The notes under the pieces are model-generated. The model ran no database searches. It was given only the letters and a program-made list of their open reading frames with translations, and was not told where the DNA came from. A stretch of 10,322 nt of DNA from Candidatus Lithacetigena glycinireducens (GTDB lineage: Bacteria; Coprothermobacterota; HKB111). Numbering within the stretch: the stretch's first letter is position 1; the number at the start of each line of letters is the position of its first letter. The stretch covers positions 1-10,322 of the forward strand of contig QLUP01000028.1 of the NCBI GenBank assembly GCA_018725485.1, written 5' to 3'. A program made the position numbers and the translations under genes. Of the stretch, positions 3,246 to 9,818 are shown piece after piece.

Positions 3246-5285
3246 TCAGGCTTTTCCGTAATCTATCCGACTATGGTATAGAGTAAGGAGATCGTCTATC
3301 AAACTTTCCTGAACCAGCTTTAATTCCCTGAAGGAAATTGCTGACTCGGTAAACTGACCATCATCTGCTCGTTCTTTTACAATGGATTCCACTGACTCTT
3401 TAATCCGGGTGGGGCTTACCTCGGTAAGCGAACGAACAGCTGCTTCGCAGGCATCAGCTAACATAACAATAACATTCTCTTTTGAATTTGGCCTGGGACC
3501 CGGGTAACGATAGGTTTCTTCTTTGGGATAGGTTTCCTTGAGGGAAGCTTCTTGATAAAAGTAAGGTACCAAATAAGTCCCATGATGGGAATTTATAATA
3601 TCTATTATTTGCGGTGGTAACTTTACTTTTCTCCCTACCACCGCTCCCTCCCTGGGATGGCTGATAATAACCCGAGCGCTTAAAGAAGGTGAAATTTTTT
3701 GGTGGATGCTCTGACCACCGGTTTGATTTTCGTTATAAAAAAGCGGGTGGTTTATCTTGCCCAGATCGTGATATAGCCCTCCAACTTTACAAAGTAGCGA
3801 ATTGGCTTTAATTTTACCGGCAGCATGTTCGCTTAAAGTAGCTACTAATTGAGAATGATGGTAAGTACCAGGAGCTTCCAGCAATAGCTTCTTTAGAATA
3901 AACTGGTCTAAATCAGCCAGCTCCAGAAGTCTAAAAGGAGTAAGTACTTTAAAATATCTCTCAAAAATAGGCAACAATATCATCACCAGGATAAAAGCAG
4001 CCCCACAGCTAACTGCTAATTTGAATGAATAATCAAGGGAAGTTATTAAATTAAAGCCTTCATATAGTTTAATAGGTAAGTAAAGCAGGAATAAGACAGT
4101 AAAAGTAATACCGGATAACAGGATAAATTCAGCTCTGTGTCTTACTTTTTGCATATAAATAAGTGCTGGAGCAAACCCCACCAAAAGAGGAATTACCTCT
4201 AATCCTTTCAAGGGAAAAATAAGGACGAATACACCGATAGAAAAGAAAATAAAAATCACGCTACCTGCAAAGTTTGTGGCTACCCCGATTAAAATACCAA
4301 TAGTGAGTATGGGGGAAAAATGGTACTCTATGGGTAAACCCCGGTAAATATATGAGATTAAAAGAACTGTGAAGGTAGCACTAATCCAGATCCAATCGTT
4401 CAAGGTGTTTCCCCCGAGTATTTGTTTTTGTTTAAAAAGCTTTAGATAACCAAAAGCTAACAGGGCTACATAGGGAAAAAAATAAACGAAGTTGTAATAT
4501 AGGAAAGGGTTTTTTCGGTAAAGACCAACCGCTTCTAATATATCAATGTGTCTTGGACTCACAACCTCCCCTTCCTTGAGGATAGCTTCGCCACGAAAAA
4601 CCATACCTGTAATATCCGCTACTGAAGACCGAGCCTCCCTTTTTCTTTGTTCTGTAGCACTGATATCCACCAGGGAATTTGGTTCAGTCACCTGATAAGA
4701 AATAAGCTTAGAAGCGATATCTATTTCCAGAGGGCTATATATTGCCAGTGCTGGAGAATTAATTACTAAACTGGCGATCTGATTCACTTTTTCCTCTTTT
4801 ATTCCTTCTTCCAAAAACTGTTTTAATAATTGGGTGCAACTCAAAGAAAAATCCTTGAAGGCTTCTTCGGGAAGATTTAAAAGATACAGCGCTTCTTCTC
4901 TGGATAATACCCTGGTATCTTCTACTATAAAAGTTACCTTTTCTTCCTGATTTATGCTTTGCCCTCTAACCTGAGAAATAAACTCCAGAGTAGTGTTCAT
5001 GTTTGTTAGAATGTTCAGGGTTATGGTCGGATTAATACTATATACCGGAAGTACTATTTCTTCAGCCTTTTTCTTCAATTCCTCAGTCTTTACCCTGTCA
5101 ACAAACAAAGCCGTTCGAGGAGAAATAATGGTTTCCTTGCTTACATCCCCCACATTTAGAAAGAGTATCTGGGGAGCGGTAAATAAAAAGATAAATACTA
5201 ACCAGATGGTAATTAAAACTGTTGGCTTAATAAGGGATAAAATAAAGTTATAAAAAGGACTTTTATTTATGCTGACTTTTCTCAT
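3246..5285 (-). CDS. pgpH: 7TM-HD domain c-di-AMP phosphodiesterase, PgpH type
   Basis: This is a 679-residue membrane-anchored HD phosphohydrolase of the YqfF/PgpH family, whose studied members hydrolyse the second messenger c-di-AMP. The order is: one N-terminal membrane helix (~21-43); a long extracytoplasmic sensor region (~44-258, 7TMR-HDED type, with the typical VFRGEAILKEGEVVS stretch at 229-243); about seven membrane helices (~262-441); and a cytoplasmic HD domain. Visible HD metal-site residues are H476/H477 in GTYHHS, H506-D507 in YHDLGK, H543 in ISHP, H567/H568 in SHHGT, and D611 in LADACEA. Length and architecture are complete. The ATG overlaps the end of phoH by 23 bases and the stop is 2 bases from ybeY, so the three genes are tightly linked. 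That order matches the standard phoH-pgpH-ybeY cluster of Bacillota. c-di-AMP as substrate is inferred from the family. Confidence 0.93.
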   Translation of the reverse strand: MRKVSINKSPFYNFILSLIKPTVLITIWLVFIFLFTAPQILFLNVGDVSKETIISPRTALFVDRVKTEELKKKAEEIVLPVYSINPTITLNILTNMNTTLEFISQVRGQSINQEEKVTFIVEDTRVLSREEALYLLNLPEEAFKDFSLSCTQLLKQFLEEGIKEEKVNQIASLVINSPALAIYSPLEIDIASKLISYQVTEPNSLVDISATEQRKREARSSVADITGMVFRGEAILKEGEVVSPRHIDILEAVGLYRKNPFLYYNFVYFFPYVALLAFGYLKLFKQKQILGGNTLNDWIWISATFTVLLISYIYRGLPIEYHFSPILTIGILIGVATNFAGSVIFIFFSIGVFVLIFPLKGLEVIPLLVGFAPALIYMQKVRHRAEFILLSGITFTVLFLLYLPIKLYEGFNLITSLDYSFKLAVSCGAAFILVMILLPIFERYFKVLTPFRLLELADLDQFILKKLLLEAPGTYHHSQLVATLSEHAAGKIKANSLLCKVGGLYHDLGKINHPLFYNENQTGGQSIHQKISPSLSARVIISHPREGAVVGRKVKLPPQIIDIINSHHGTYLVPYFYQEASLKETYPKEETYRYPGPRPNSKENVIVMLADACEAAVRSLTEVSPTRIKESVESIVKERADDGQFTESAISFRELKLVQESLIDDLLTLYHSRIDYGKA

Positions 5286-6123
5286 ACTGCTCGTAGGATT
5301 TGACTATTTTCTGAACTAATGAGTGACGGACCACATCTTTCTCGCTTAACTTGATAATTTCTACCTCCGAAATATTTTTTAATATTTGCACAGCTTCAAT
5401 CAACCCTGAAGTAGCCCCCTTCGGTAAATCTATTTGGGTTATATCACCAGTAACTACAAATTTAGAACCAAAGCCCATGCGGGTAAGGAACATTTTCATC
5501 TGTTCAGTAGTGGTATTCTGGGCTTCATCAAGAATTACAAAAGAATCATTGAAAGTTCTGCCTCTCATAAAAGCCAGAGGAGCAACTTCTAAGGTGCCTT
5601 TTTCAAAAAACCGCTGCAGGACATCACTTTCTACCATATCATAAAGAGCGTCGTAAAGTGGTCTGAAATAGGGGTCAACTTTTTGCAGAATGTCCCCTGG
5701 TAGAAAACCGAGCCTTTCTCCAGCTTCCAGAACTGGTCTAACTAATATGACCCGGCTGATGATTTTGGCTTTTAAAAAATGAATGGCCACTGCTGCCGCT
5801 AAGTAAGTTTTTCCTGTGCCAGCTGGACCTATGGCTACAGTAAGGTCGCTTCGCCTCATGGCTTCAGCATACAACCTCTGCCCCTCGGTTTTAGGGGTAA
5901 TGCCTTTCCCCCGGTGGGTGGTCAGTATAACATCGCGAAGTATTTTTGAAGGGTCAGCTTCTTCATCATGGAGGAAATAATCAACCTCTCTTTCTGAAAA
6001 TAACCCTCCTTTTTCTACCACCTTTAAAGCTTTCAAAAGGAGTGATTCCACCCGAGCGCTTTCGTCGTCTTCTCCAATAATTACCAGCCTGTTGTCTTCA
6101 ACAAATATCTTAACCCCGCTCAC
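5263..6123 (-). CDS. phoH: PhoH family ATPase; N-terminus probably longer than the GTG start given
   Basis: This is a cytoplasmic P-loop ATPase of the PhoH family, linked to RNA metabolism and usually next to ybeY. Numbered from the GTG at 6123 it has 286 residues: Walker A GPAGTGKT (99-106), the family block EAGERLGFLPGDI (133-145) and KVDPYFRPLYDALYDM (148-163), Walker B VILDEAQ (196-202), and sensor VTGDITQIDLP (224-234). The PhoH core is complete. The frame stays open upstream and encodes 29 further residues that look like the normal PhoH N-terminus (NPENLRKLVG, then HIEKVSGVKI). With these the length becomes ~315, the family norm. A perfect AAGGAGG lies six bases before the codon GTA at 6208-6210, but no ATG, GTG or TTG occurs between there and 6123. 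I give the first canonical start; the true one is probably near 6210. The gene overlaps the anti-sigma gene by at least 32 bases if so extended. Confidence 0.9.
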   Translation of the reverse strand: MSGVKIFVEDNRLVIIGEDDESARVESLLLKALKVVEKGGLFSEREVDYFLHDEEADPSKILRDVILTTHRGKGITPKTEGQRLYAEAMRRSDLTVAIGPAGTGKTYLAAAVAIHFLKAKIISRVILVRPVLEAGERLGFLPGDILQKVDPYFRPLYDALYDMVESDVLQRFFEKGTLEVAPLAFMRGRTFNDSFVILDEAQNTTTEQMKMFLTRMGFGSKFVVTGDITQIDLPKGATSGLIEAVQILKNISEVEIIKLSEKDVVRHSLVQKIVKSYEQYEKSQHK

Positions 6124-6178
6124 CTTCTCTATATGCCTTAGGGTAGCATCACCTATACCAACGAGTTTCCTGAGATTT

Positions 6179-6889
6179 TCAGGGTTGCTGGTGATAATCT
6201 CTCGTTCTACTTTTTTCCTCCTTAATATAAATATAAATGGTCCCGCTTTCTATATTATCGGTCTTAGTTTTAAGGGCGTCAGCTAAATTCATTTTTTCCT
6301 TGAATTGGGTTAATTCTTTCATAAAATTGTCCATTTCTTTATCAGAAACAATTATATAATATAATACCTCTTTTTCTCTTATTTCTTTAGATTCAACTAC
6401 TACTGAAGAAGTTTTAATCAGTTCTTCAAATTCCAGTGAGGTACTTTTCAAATTGGCTACTTCCAGGGTAGTAGGAGTTATCTTTATAGCTAAACTATCT
6501 AAAGCGCGTTCCTGGATAACCGGAGGCTTATCAGAACTATACATAGGACCATACCAGGAAGGCAAAGCATAGCGAAGACCAATAGCTATTAAAAGGGCGG
6601 CGGTTAGAAATACGGCAACCCCTATCCTCTCATTCAATATTCTTAACCTTTTCATTTTATTCGTTTTTATTGTTTCCAAAACCTTGAATTTTAACTCCAG
6701 CGGTACCTCAACCTGAGGGATTTCTGTCAGGGTAGTGTTAATAAACTGAAAATCATGGAATATCCTACGGCAGTCAGGGCACTCTGCCAGATGCTGTTCT
6801 AATTCAGTTTTCTGGGGCTCATTAAGCTCATCATCAAGGTATTGGTTTATATTATTTCTTAGAGTGTGGCAATTATTTTCTTTCATCAT
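6179..6889 (-). CDS. Membrane-bound anti-sigma factor with zinc finger (zf-HC2/ZAS type)
   Basis: This 236-residue protein is a probable anti-sigma factor that holds its partner ECF sigma factor inactive at the membrane. The N-terminal cytoplasmic domain carries the ZAS signature H33-x3-C37-x2-C40 (HLAECPDC), with C7/H8 upstream as further candidate ligands and the helix NQYLDDELN around 15-23 typical of the family. One membrane helix follows at ~90-107. The remaining ~130 residues would lie outside the membrane and are rich in Lys/Glu, with no domain I recognise. The gene starts with ATG-ATG, 12 bases after the stop of the sigma factor gene, the usual order. It looks intact, whereas the sigma gene is broken. 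Its last codons overlap the likely true start of phoH. The anti-sigma assignment rests on the ZAS motif, the single helix and the neighbour; the signal sensed is unknown. Confidence 0.85.
   Translation of the reverse strand: MMKENNCHTLRNNINQYLDDELNEPQKTELEQHLAECPDCRRIFHDFQFINTTLTEIPQVEVPLELKFKVLETIKTNKMKRLRILNERIGVAVFLTAALLIAIGLRYALPSWYGPMYSSDKPPVIQERALDSLAIKITPTTLEVANLKSTSLEFEELIKTSSVVVESKEIREKEVLYYIIVSDKEMDNFMKELTQFKEKMNLADALKTKTDNIESGTIYIYIKEEKSRTRDYHQQP
6217..6223 (-). promoter_or_regulatory. Strong Shine-Dalgarno for phoH without a canonical start codon behind it
   Basis: On the minus strand this is AAGGAGG followed by six A residues and then GTA GAA CGA GAG ATT in the phoH frame. The site and spacing are ideal for translation initiation at 6210, and the encoded residues there look like PhoH. 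The codon at that place is not a standard start. It lies inside the 3' end of the anti-sigma factor gene. Confidence 0.65.
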
Positions 6890-6901: not shown

Positions 6902-7410
6902 TTATCCTTCCTTTATGGTTCCCTCGCCAAATAACCAAGATTTTAATATAAACCTGCCACGATAAATACGAGATTTAACCGTGCCTACAGGAATTTGTAG
7001 TATTTCTCCGATTTCTTCATAAGAAAGACCGTCAACAGCTTTCATAAGAAGAGGTAGCCTGAACTCTACGGGAAGGTTCATCACCTTTTCTTGAACCCTT
7101 TCTTTTAACTCCTCCTGCTCCAGATTTTCATATATATCTCTTTTATCTATTTGGGGGTTAAAACCCTTTTCTTCCAGTTCGTCATAGGAGAGCTCTCTGG
7201 CTCGCTTCTTTTTCCTTAAATAATCAATACTCGCATTCACCGTAAGGCGGTATATCCAGGTTTTCAGGCTGGAAAGACCTTTAAAACCCGGTAAGGCTTG
7301 ATATTTTTATACAAGCCTCCTGAACAACATCATCTTACTATTTTAAGCGATACCGAATATATAAGCGGTAGATATTCTATGATTACTTCCTCAGCCTTAT
7401 CTCTCTCCAT
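6902..7410 (-). pseudogene. ECF-type sigma-70 factor, reading frame broken twice in region 2
   Basis: A complete ECF sigma factor can be pieced together only by using three frames. An ATG at 7408-7410 begins MERDKAEEVIIEYLPLIYSV and runs to KIV (7336), with a TGA at 7330-7332. A second frame gives DDVVQEACIKI (7334-7302). The third frame, 7300 down to 6902, reads QALPGFKGLSSLKTW, then the region 2/4 linker, then region 4 LSYEEIGEILQIPVGTVKSR with its helix-turn-helix. The joined product would be ~175 residues, the usual ECF length. Both breaks fit small deletions: the first about 17 bases by comparison with the family spacing, the second 2 bases in an ATATAT-like run. The only long intact frame starts at GTG 7240 and would give 112 residues lacking most of region 2 (-10 and core binding). 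Translation of the ATG is plausible from AAGGT just upstream. Either this is a true decayed gene or the assembly has indel errors. Confidence 0.8.
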
Positions 7411-7429: not shown

Positions 7430-8686
7430 TTATAGTTTGCTTCCTGAATAAACCAGGTTATTTTCTTCTTCTATTCTAAGGAGCTCATTATATTTGAGGG
7501 TTCTTTCTCCCCTGGCAGGGGCTCCTGCTTTTATACCCTGGGCTCCTGTGGCTACCGATAGGTGAGAAATAAAGTTTTCTTCTGTTTCTCCTGACCGGTG
7601 AGATACGATGACTTTGTAGCCTGCATCACGGGCAATCTTTATAGTCTCCAGGGTTTCGCTGATGGTTCCTACCTGGTTCACTTTAACCAATACACTATTA
7701 GCTATTCCCCTACTGATACCTTCTTTTAACCTGGCAGGATTGGTTACAAATAAATCATCACCCACCAGCTGAACCCTTTTACCTATCCTTTCTGTTAAAA
7801 ACTCCCAACCGTCATAATCATTTTCGCCCAAAGCATCTTCAACAGAAATAATTGGGTATTGCAGGGTTAAATCCTCATAAAAATAGGTTAAATCTTTATA
7901 ATTCCAGTTTTTCCCTTCAAAATGATATTTACCATCTTTATAGAACTCAGAAGAAGCAACATCTAATGCCAGAAATATTGATTCACCCAATTTATAGGGA
8001 CTGGAAGAAACAGCCTCAATGATTACTTTCAAGGCTTCTTCAGTAGTTGATAATCGCGGGGCAAAACCTCCCTCATCACCTACACTTATAATATCATTTT
8101 TCTGTTTTAGAATAGATTTAAGTATATGATAAATCTCTACAGATGCTCTCAGGGCTTCTTTAAAACTTTTAAATTTCATAGGCATTAACATAAACTCCTG
8201 TACATCAAGCTGGTTATCGGCATGCCTTCCACCATTAAGGATGTTTAAGTAAGGAATCGGTAAAGTAAAACTTGCTATACCTCCAAGGTAACGGTAAAGT
8301 GGTATGCCTAAATAATTTGCTGAAGCTCGGGCAACTGCTCCTGAGACAGCTAAGATAGCGTTCGCACCCAACTTACGCTTATTAGGGGTTCCATCAAGGG
8401 TTATCATCAGGTTATCTATTTCCAGCTGATTTAATGCTTCTTGTCCTAAGAGCTCGGGTTTAATTATTTCCGAAATATTGTTAATCGCCTGCAAAACCCC
8501 ATCACCAAAGTATCTCTGCTTGTTTTTATCTCTTAATTCCAGGGCTTCGTGCTCCCCGGTTGATGCTCCCGAAGGGACTATAAAAGCACCCTCAGTACCG
8601 TCTTCCAGTGTTACTACCCCTTCTACCGTAGGTTTCCCCCGGCTGTCAAGAACTTCTCTGCCTTTAATGTTTATGATAGTGCTCAT
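7430..8686 (-). CDS. eno: Enolase (phosphopyruvate hydratase)
   Basis: This is a 418-residue enolase that interconverts 2-phosphoglycerate and phosphoenolpyruvate in glycolysis and gluconeogenesis. The whole family pattern is present, numbered from the ATG at 8686: substrate loop SGAST (39-43), H155 in GGRHADN, E164 in VQEF, E205 in GDEGGFAP, metal ligands D242, E283 and D310, catalytic K335 in VKVNQVGT, the signature SHRSGETE (362-369), and K386. A few positions are unusual (RHADN for AHADN; GAQGIKAGAP for the common GQIKTGAP), so it is somewhat divergent but should be active. It is about 10 residues shorter than common bacterial enolases. The frame extends 14 codons further up to an ATG at 8728, but AAGGAGG six bases before 8686 and the N-terminus MSTIINIKGREVLDSRG favour 8686. 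It overlaps the end of mazG by 23 bases, suggesting coupled translation. Confidence 0.96.
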   Translation of the reverse strand: MSTIINIKGREVLDSRGKPTVEGVVTLEDGTEGAFIVPSGASTGEHEALELRDKNKQRYFGDGVLQAINNISEIIKPELLGQEALNQLEIDNLMITLDGTPNKRKLGANAILAVSGAVARASANYLGIPLYRYLGGIASFTLPIPYLNILNGGRHADNQLDVQEFMLMPMKFKSFKEALRASVEIYHILKSILKQKNDIISVGDEGGFAPRLSTTEEALKVIIEAVSSSPYKLGESIFLALDVASSEFYKDGKYHFEGKNWNYKDLTYFYEDLTLQYPIISVEDALGENDYDGWEFLTERIGKRVQLVGDDLFVTNPARLKEGISRGIANSVLVKVNQVGTISETLETIKIARDAGYKVIVSHRSGETEENFISHLSVATGAQGIKAGAPARGERTLKYNELLRIEEENNLVYSGSKL

Positions 8687-9818
8687 TGGTTTCCTCCTTA
8701 TCTTTAATATCCTCCCATAAACCATCAAGTTTATAAGGGTCTAAAATGCTTTCATCGGTTACTAACTCGCAGACCTTCTGGAAACGATCAGCAAATTTTA
8801 TAGTGGATGATTTTAAAGAACCTTCAGCATCCACCTTTATATGCCTGCTCAGGTTGACAATGCTAAATAATAAATCACCTACTTCGTTTTCTAAGTTTCC
8901 TCCCTGATTTATAGCCGTTTTCAATTCTTCAAGTTCTTCTTCCACTTTTTTAAGTACATCCTTATAATCTGTAAAATCAAACCCTTTTTTACGAGCTCCT
9001 TCCTGGACTCTCTTAGCTCCCATCAGAGCCGAGGGTGTAGCCTGAGCTATTTCATTAATCTTATTGATGGCAATTTCACCATTTTTGTTTCTTTCCCAGA
9101 TAGTTATAGCTTCTTCGCCAGTTTCAACCGCTTCATCGCCAAAAACATGCGTATGTCTTCTTATTAACTTATCTCGCAGATGGTTAATAACCGACTTGAT
9201 ATTGGCTTTATAACCTTGATTTTCTTCTAACATCAAACTGTGCAAAATAATGTGCAAGAGCAAATCGCCAAGTTCTCCTTCTATCTCTTCCTTTCTATCA
9301 TATTTTATAGCCTGCCATAGTTCAGACACCTCTTCCCAGGTTAAAGGAAGAATATCAATCATTTTAAGGGAGTTGTCCCAGGGACATTTTTCTCTCAGCG
9401 TTTTAATCAGAATATACAGGTTTAATAAAGAGTTGCTCAGGGTATTTGCTTCCAGAGAAGGTACAGCTGGTAAATCTTCTACCTTTAAGTTTCCGAAAAG
9501 TAAACCTCCAGCACCTTCCTGTAAAGTTGATAAGGCTTTTCCCGGCAAATAACCAATTTGCATAAGAAAATATGCTAATAGTATTCCCGCACTTTCAGGA
9601 CTCAGAATATCTGGAATTAAACAAAGTAGTGGATAATTACCCTTATCAACCTCTTCCAGGATTTTCAAATAAAACTGTTCATATTCAATGTTTTCTGAAT
9701 CAGTAACAAAGGCTAAAAGGTCTATTTCAGAAAAAAACCCTTCATGGAATACGGGGATAGGTTTTTTTCTTACAAATGCCAGCAGCCCGGGAATTAACCA
9801 GATGATACTATCTGTCAA
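8664..9818 (-). CDS. mazG: MazG nucleoside triphosphate pyrophosphohydrolase with extra N-terminal domain
   Basis: MazG hydrolyses NTPs/dNTPs to monophosphate and pyrophosphate, cleaning the nucleotide pool or modulating stress signalling. The 384-residue protein has two tandem MazG repeats. The first (~130-243) has LREKCPWD (141-148), WEEVSE (161-166), GELGDLLLH (181-189) and IRRHTHVFG (219-227). The second (~265-350) has EEELEELKTAI (293-303), ENEVGDLLFS (310-319) and FADRFQKV (342-349). Residues E162, E163, E166, E182 and D185, and likewise E294, E297, E298, E312 and D315, fit the metal-binding pattern. E. coli MazG is about 263 residues; here ~130 extra residues precede the repeats. Bacillota YabN carries a full tetrapyrrole methylase there, and this part may be a shrunken remnant (weak inference). 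The start is TTG, overlapping the lapA-like gene by 11 bases, with AAGGA upstream. The stop lies inside the enolase gene. Confidence 0.92.
   Translation of the reverse strand: MTDSIIWLIPGLLAFVRKKPIPVFHEGFFSEIDLLAFVTDSENIEYEQFYLKILEEVDKGNYPLLCLIPDILSPESAGILLAYFLMQIGYLPGKALSTLQEGAGGLLFGNLKVEDLPAVPSLEANTLSNSLLNLYILIKTLREKCPWDNSLKMIDILPLTWEEVSELWQAIKYDRKEEIEGELGDLLLHIILHSLMLEENQGYKANIKSVINHLRDKLIRRHTHVFGDEAVETGEEAITIWERNKNGEIAINKINEIAQATPSALMGAKRVQEGARKKGFDFTDYKDVLKKVEEELEELKTAINQGGNLENEVGDLLFSIVNLSRHIKVDAEGSLKSSTIKFADRFQKVCELVTDESILDPYKLDGLWEDIKDKEETNEHYHKH
8693..8699 (-). promoter_or_regulatory. Shine-Dalgarno of enolase, inside mazG
   Basis: The minus strand reads AAGGAGG with a 6-base spacer to the ATG at 8686. 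It lies inside the 3' end of mazG. It decides the enolase start at 8686 over the in-frame ATG at 8728, which has no family-like N-terminal sequence. Confidence 0.85.

Follow-up and report, generated by a model that had tools for sequence, protein, structure and literature searches.

The window, a contig of 10,322 nucleotides, carries on its minus strand an ECF sigma factor sequence distributed over three frames (7410–7336, 7334–7302, and 7300–6902). On the best explanation, this is probably a genuine pseudogene that arose recently from a SigW/RpoE-like ECF sigma factor gene and has lost its function. Two lesions separate the frames, an intact copy stands at the syntenic place of a relative, the neighbouring genes are intact, and the remnant has kept the mark of selection. 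On this reading the case is unexceptional, a recent pseudogene in a well-known family.

Genomes and locus organization

The sequence examined, contig C126, comes from the draft genome (1.24 Mb, 204 contigs, 83% complete) of an uncultured bacterium belonging to the same genus as Candidatus Psychracetigena formicireducens (candidate phylum "Ca. Lithacetigenota"). Ca. Psychracetigena formicireducens is a member of "Ca. Lithacetigenota" described from the serpentinite-hosted springs The Cedars and Hakuba, and its genome was assembled from short reads with SPAdes (PMC9751293). Within the genus, the comparison was made with one genome, that of Ca. Psychracetigena formicireducens BS5B28 (G001), the nearest relative that has been sequenced. 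The aligned part of the window and the relative's contig covered 9.8 kb and was 84% identical. The gene order was kept, and both carry enolase, ECF sigma factor, zinc-finger anti-sigma factor, and phoH in succession. The features of the locus are collected in Table 1.

Table 1. Features of the sigma factor locus in the window
Feature	Position	Strand	Description
Enolase gene	7430–8728	−	Intact, upstream of the sigma sequence (stop at 7430); syntenic anchor
N-terminal remnant, start of region 2	7336–7410	−	ATG 7410 opens MERDKAEEVIIEYLPLIYSVSLKIV, followed by R and a stop
First lesion	7334–7338	−	17 bases fewer than the syntenic relative
Middle remnant DDVVQEACIKI, part of region 2	7302–7334	−	Second frame, GAT...ATA
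Second lesion	7300–7302	−	2 bases fewer than the relative
C-terminal remnant (rest of region 2, linker, region 4)	6902–7300	−	Third frame
Anti-sigma factor gene (zf-HC2, ZAS-type, membrane)	6179–6889	−	Essentially intact, start 6889; last residues altered
phoH-family ATPase gene	5263–6210	−	Downstream syntenic anchor; first usual start GTG 6123, coding conservation to about 6210

Structure of the disrupted sigma factor sequence

The three-frame reading of the preliminary description and its coordinates were correct: KIV ends at 7336, DDVVQEACIKI runs from 7334 to 7302, and QALPGFKGL begins at 7300. After the end of MERDKAEEVIIEYLPLIYSVSLKIV at 7336, the next codon is AGA (R) and the one after it is a TGA stop. 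The C-terminal remnant QALPGFKGL... resumes with CAA at 7300, and from there no stop interrupts the frame before the original one at 6902. A single frame over region 2 and region 4, expected of a functional ECF sigma factor, is absent. Translation from ATG 7410 covers about 26 codons and stops short of most of region 2.

The preliminary description had also proposed comparing the same locus in a close relative, and this returned an intact copy. BS5B28 (QLTX01000028.1, L032 6883–7410; G001:C200) has a continuous sigma frame of 176 codons at the syntenic place, against which the changes in the window disrupt the frame. The DNA identity across the sigma gene was 84%, and the protein identity over the C-terminal part was 88%. 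In the N-terminal remnant, 24 codons were identical in protein with 4 synonymous differences. At the two sites, the orthologue exceeds the window by 17 and 2 bases, so that the loss of about 17 bases claimed for the first junction proved to be exactly 17 in the alignment. Both losses are of the form 3n+2, as had been proposed, and the two together (17 + 2 bases) do not restore the frame. The blastn alignment displayed the 17-base loss near 7336 in two parts (8+9). Of these bases, 9 could be accounted for by a short AGATGA-like repeat. For the second junction, the 2-base loss stood, but its origin need not be the supposed ATATAT run. With ATATAC at this site in the relative, dropping a TA repeat unit is just one of the possible routes; a slip in an ATATAT run would be possible only if the ancestor of the window carried that synonymous variant.

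With 17 and 2 bases lost close together, a working protein is probably no longer made. The only products could be a peptide of about 26 residues or, at most, a region-4 fragment starting at GTG 7240 or later. From either, a working ECF sigma factor is not expected. The earlier claim that the core- and −10-binding part would not be made agrees with this predicted outcome.

Family identity

Judged by its domain matches, the remnant is an ECF (group IV sigma70) sigma factor by ancestry. The open frame of the window alone matched Sigma70 region 4 (PF08281, 1.3e-13). Aligning the three-frame translation with the ECF sigma family, a check already suggested, matched both regions: the read-through with X at the missing residues gave Sigma70_r2 (PF04542) at 4.3e-15 (55.7 bits) and Sigma70_r4_2 (PF08281) at 2.9e-13. 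For the intact protein of the relative, region 2 gave 2.6e-18 (66 bits) and region 4 gave 55.3 bits. Only regions 2 and 4 matched and region 3 was absent, as in ECF sigma factors, and the TIGR02937 sigma70-ECF match was above its cut-off. The adjoining gene matched zf-HC2 (1.6e-10), so a linked zinc-finger anti-sigma gene is present; such linkage is common, not universal, for ECF sigma factors.

A DNA search found no second copy of the sigma sequence in the same assembly. Two other ECF sigma genes of the draft, on contigs C34 and C122, have open frames; as paralogues of 35–38% identity, they were ruled out as a second intact copy. The gene on C34 is followed by its own, weakly similar anti-sigma gene. 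The anti-sigma gene had no match in the remaining seven genomes of the phylum, whose phoH loci, where read, had no sigma/anti-sigma pair upstream. Synteny beyond the genus is thus uninformative for the sigma locus.

Selection and timing

The dN/dS ratios were counted codon by codon against the relative (Nei–Gojobori) with bootstrap limits, and they describe one genome pair. The sigma remnant showed a dN/dS of 0.12 (95% bootstrap 0.06–0.21), and 45 of its 65 differences were at third positions. The neighbouring genes, the anti-sigma gene excluded, ranged from 0.06 (phoH) to 0.27. Because the remnant resembles its intact neighbours in this respect, the break appears recent. Neutral drift over the whole branch of the window would give a pairwise dN/dS above about 0.5. 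Taken with the upper bootstrap limit of the remnant, this puts the break, as a rough inference, within about the last third of that branch. Recent gene decay, one of the readings offered at the outset, is thus supported by the syntenic intact copy, by the frame-disrupting losses, and by the mark of purifying selection on the remnant.

Anti-sigma gene and phoH start

The claim that the anti-sigma gene is intact held for its main parts. The zinc-finger domain (zf-HC2) and the hydrophobic segment are intact and fit a ZAS-type membrane anti-sigma factor. It did not hold for the last residues: just before the stop codon, at about 6210, the gene has one base fewer than that of the relative, so that the last few residues are replaced (RTRDYHQQP) and the frame overlaps into the phoH region. 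In the window, this difference puts the relative's stop codon (AAAAAAGGTAG) out of frame (AAAAAAGTAG; 6179–6215, minus strand).

Among the ten genes compared, the anti-sigma gene (6214–6889, minus strand) had the highest dN/dS, 0.38 (0.25–0.54). Relaxed constraint is one possible cause of this value; another is that proteins of this kind usually evolve fast. That an orphan anti-sigma factor has been evolving fast since the loss of the sigma factor, perhaps rewired to a paralogous ECF sigma factor such as that on C34, seems quite improbable.

In both species, the phoH frame (6124–6210, minus strand) continued with codon-like conservation for about 29 codons ahead of GTG 6123. This stretch had no usual start codon (ATG/GTG/TTG) in either of them. 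A Shine–Dalgarno-like sequence (AAGGAGG/AGGGAGG) lies 6–7 bases ahead of a GTA codon upstream of phoH in both species, so a non-canonical start codon of phoH is possible.

Isolated break or assembly fault

The frames were checked gene by gene over about 26 kb in two contig pairs; contig C1 had too little alignable sequence in the relative. In the 9.8 kb aligned with the window, every other gene shared with the contig of the relative matched in a single frame. Internal indels of these genes were multiples of three or were cancelled within a few bases, and the one base at the anti-sigma tail was the exception outside the sigma gene. The second pair (G000:C2 against G001:C213, about 16.6 kb aligned) showed no split gene; its multi-frame matches were paralogues or places present twice in overlapping loci. 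Apart from the base at the anti-sigma tail, no other uncompensated frameshift was found in the about 26 kb compared. With the other genes in frame, neither a general error of the consensus nor decay across the genome is likely, and we rejected both.

The consensus error considered in the preliminary description is thereby improbable in its general form, and what is left of it is a purely local fault of assembly or consensus, such as a strain variant that was collapsed, with the gene whole in the organism and the lesions only in the contig. We regard such a fault as unlikely, though it deserves serious consideration. The draft genome is fragmented, and two unrelated-looking indels fall within 36 bases of a stretch that is otherwise undamaged, a pattern that misassembly of strain variants could give. 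Moreover, the remnant bears no sign of relaxed selection. However, a loss of 17 bases is untypical of a base-calling error, and the scarcity of uncompensated frameshifts on the two contigs indicates a good consensus quality. The lesion was not found in a second genome, which counts against a real pseudogene.

A shortened protein that consists of region 4 and keeps a role, e.g., binding the anti-sigma factor or the −35 element without the polymerase, is very unlikely. GTG 7240 is the only usual in-frame start ahead of region 4 in the C-terminal remnant, and the frame of 112 codons that it opens retains region 4 in full. However, the position reads GTA in the relative, and no Shine–Dalgarno-like sequence was seen upstream of GTG 7240, so the 112-residue product does not appear to be a conserved form. 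The suggestion that this protein, started at GTG 7240, is the conserved form fails and was rejected, since the relative keeps the full-length frame.

Reversible on/off switching (phase variation, earlier suggested at the TA run) or programmed frameshifting that keeps the gene in use can be practically discounted: a very short TA run does lie at the second site, but it has two or three units only and reads ATATAC in the relative, the long simple-repeat tract that marks a phase-variable gene is absent at the break, the 17-base loss does not correspond to a repeat unit and also removes about six residues with a stop directly after, and two frame changes would be required within 36 bases.

Proposed course of events and comparison with known systems

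For the pseudogene, we infer that the lesions are present in the living cell and that function was lost, with the following order of events and regulatory consequence. An ancestral sigma gene with a zinc-finger membrane anti-sigma gene would have stood between enolase and phoH. After the divergence from Ca. Psychracetigena formicireducens, selection would have acted on the sigma gene over most of the elapsed time. Small deletions of 17 and 2 bases within region 2 would then have cut translation short at about 26 codons. Binding of the RNA polymerase core and −10 recognition by this sigma factor would be lost, the anti-sigma factor would be left without its cognate partner, and the regulon of the sigma factor would be expected to be off.

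The result matters mainly for the annotation of this genome. A gene caller would predict a sigma-70 region 4 protein of 112 residues here, which is to be annotated as a piece of a broken gene. Beyond that, the locus would at most represent the recent loss of one regulatory system, with the anti-sigma factor left behind, in a small-genome lineage from serpentinite-hosted springs. If both forms occurred in one population, the locus would show, in nature, a regulator in the course of being lost.

Among known systems, SigW was the closest. For the protein of the relative, the best NCBIfam model was PRK09641.1 of SigW (1e-39), and the best solved structure was also of SigW (5wuq). The model match was below that family's own cut-off, so we call the protein SigW-like only and do not claim a SigW orthologue. 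The locus shares with SigW/RpoE-type systems region 2 and region 4 without region 3, and a zf-HC2 anti-sigma gene directly downstream. Unlike in those systems, the frame in the window is broken twice inside region 2.
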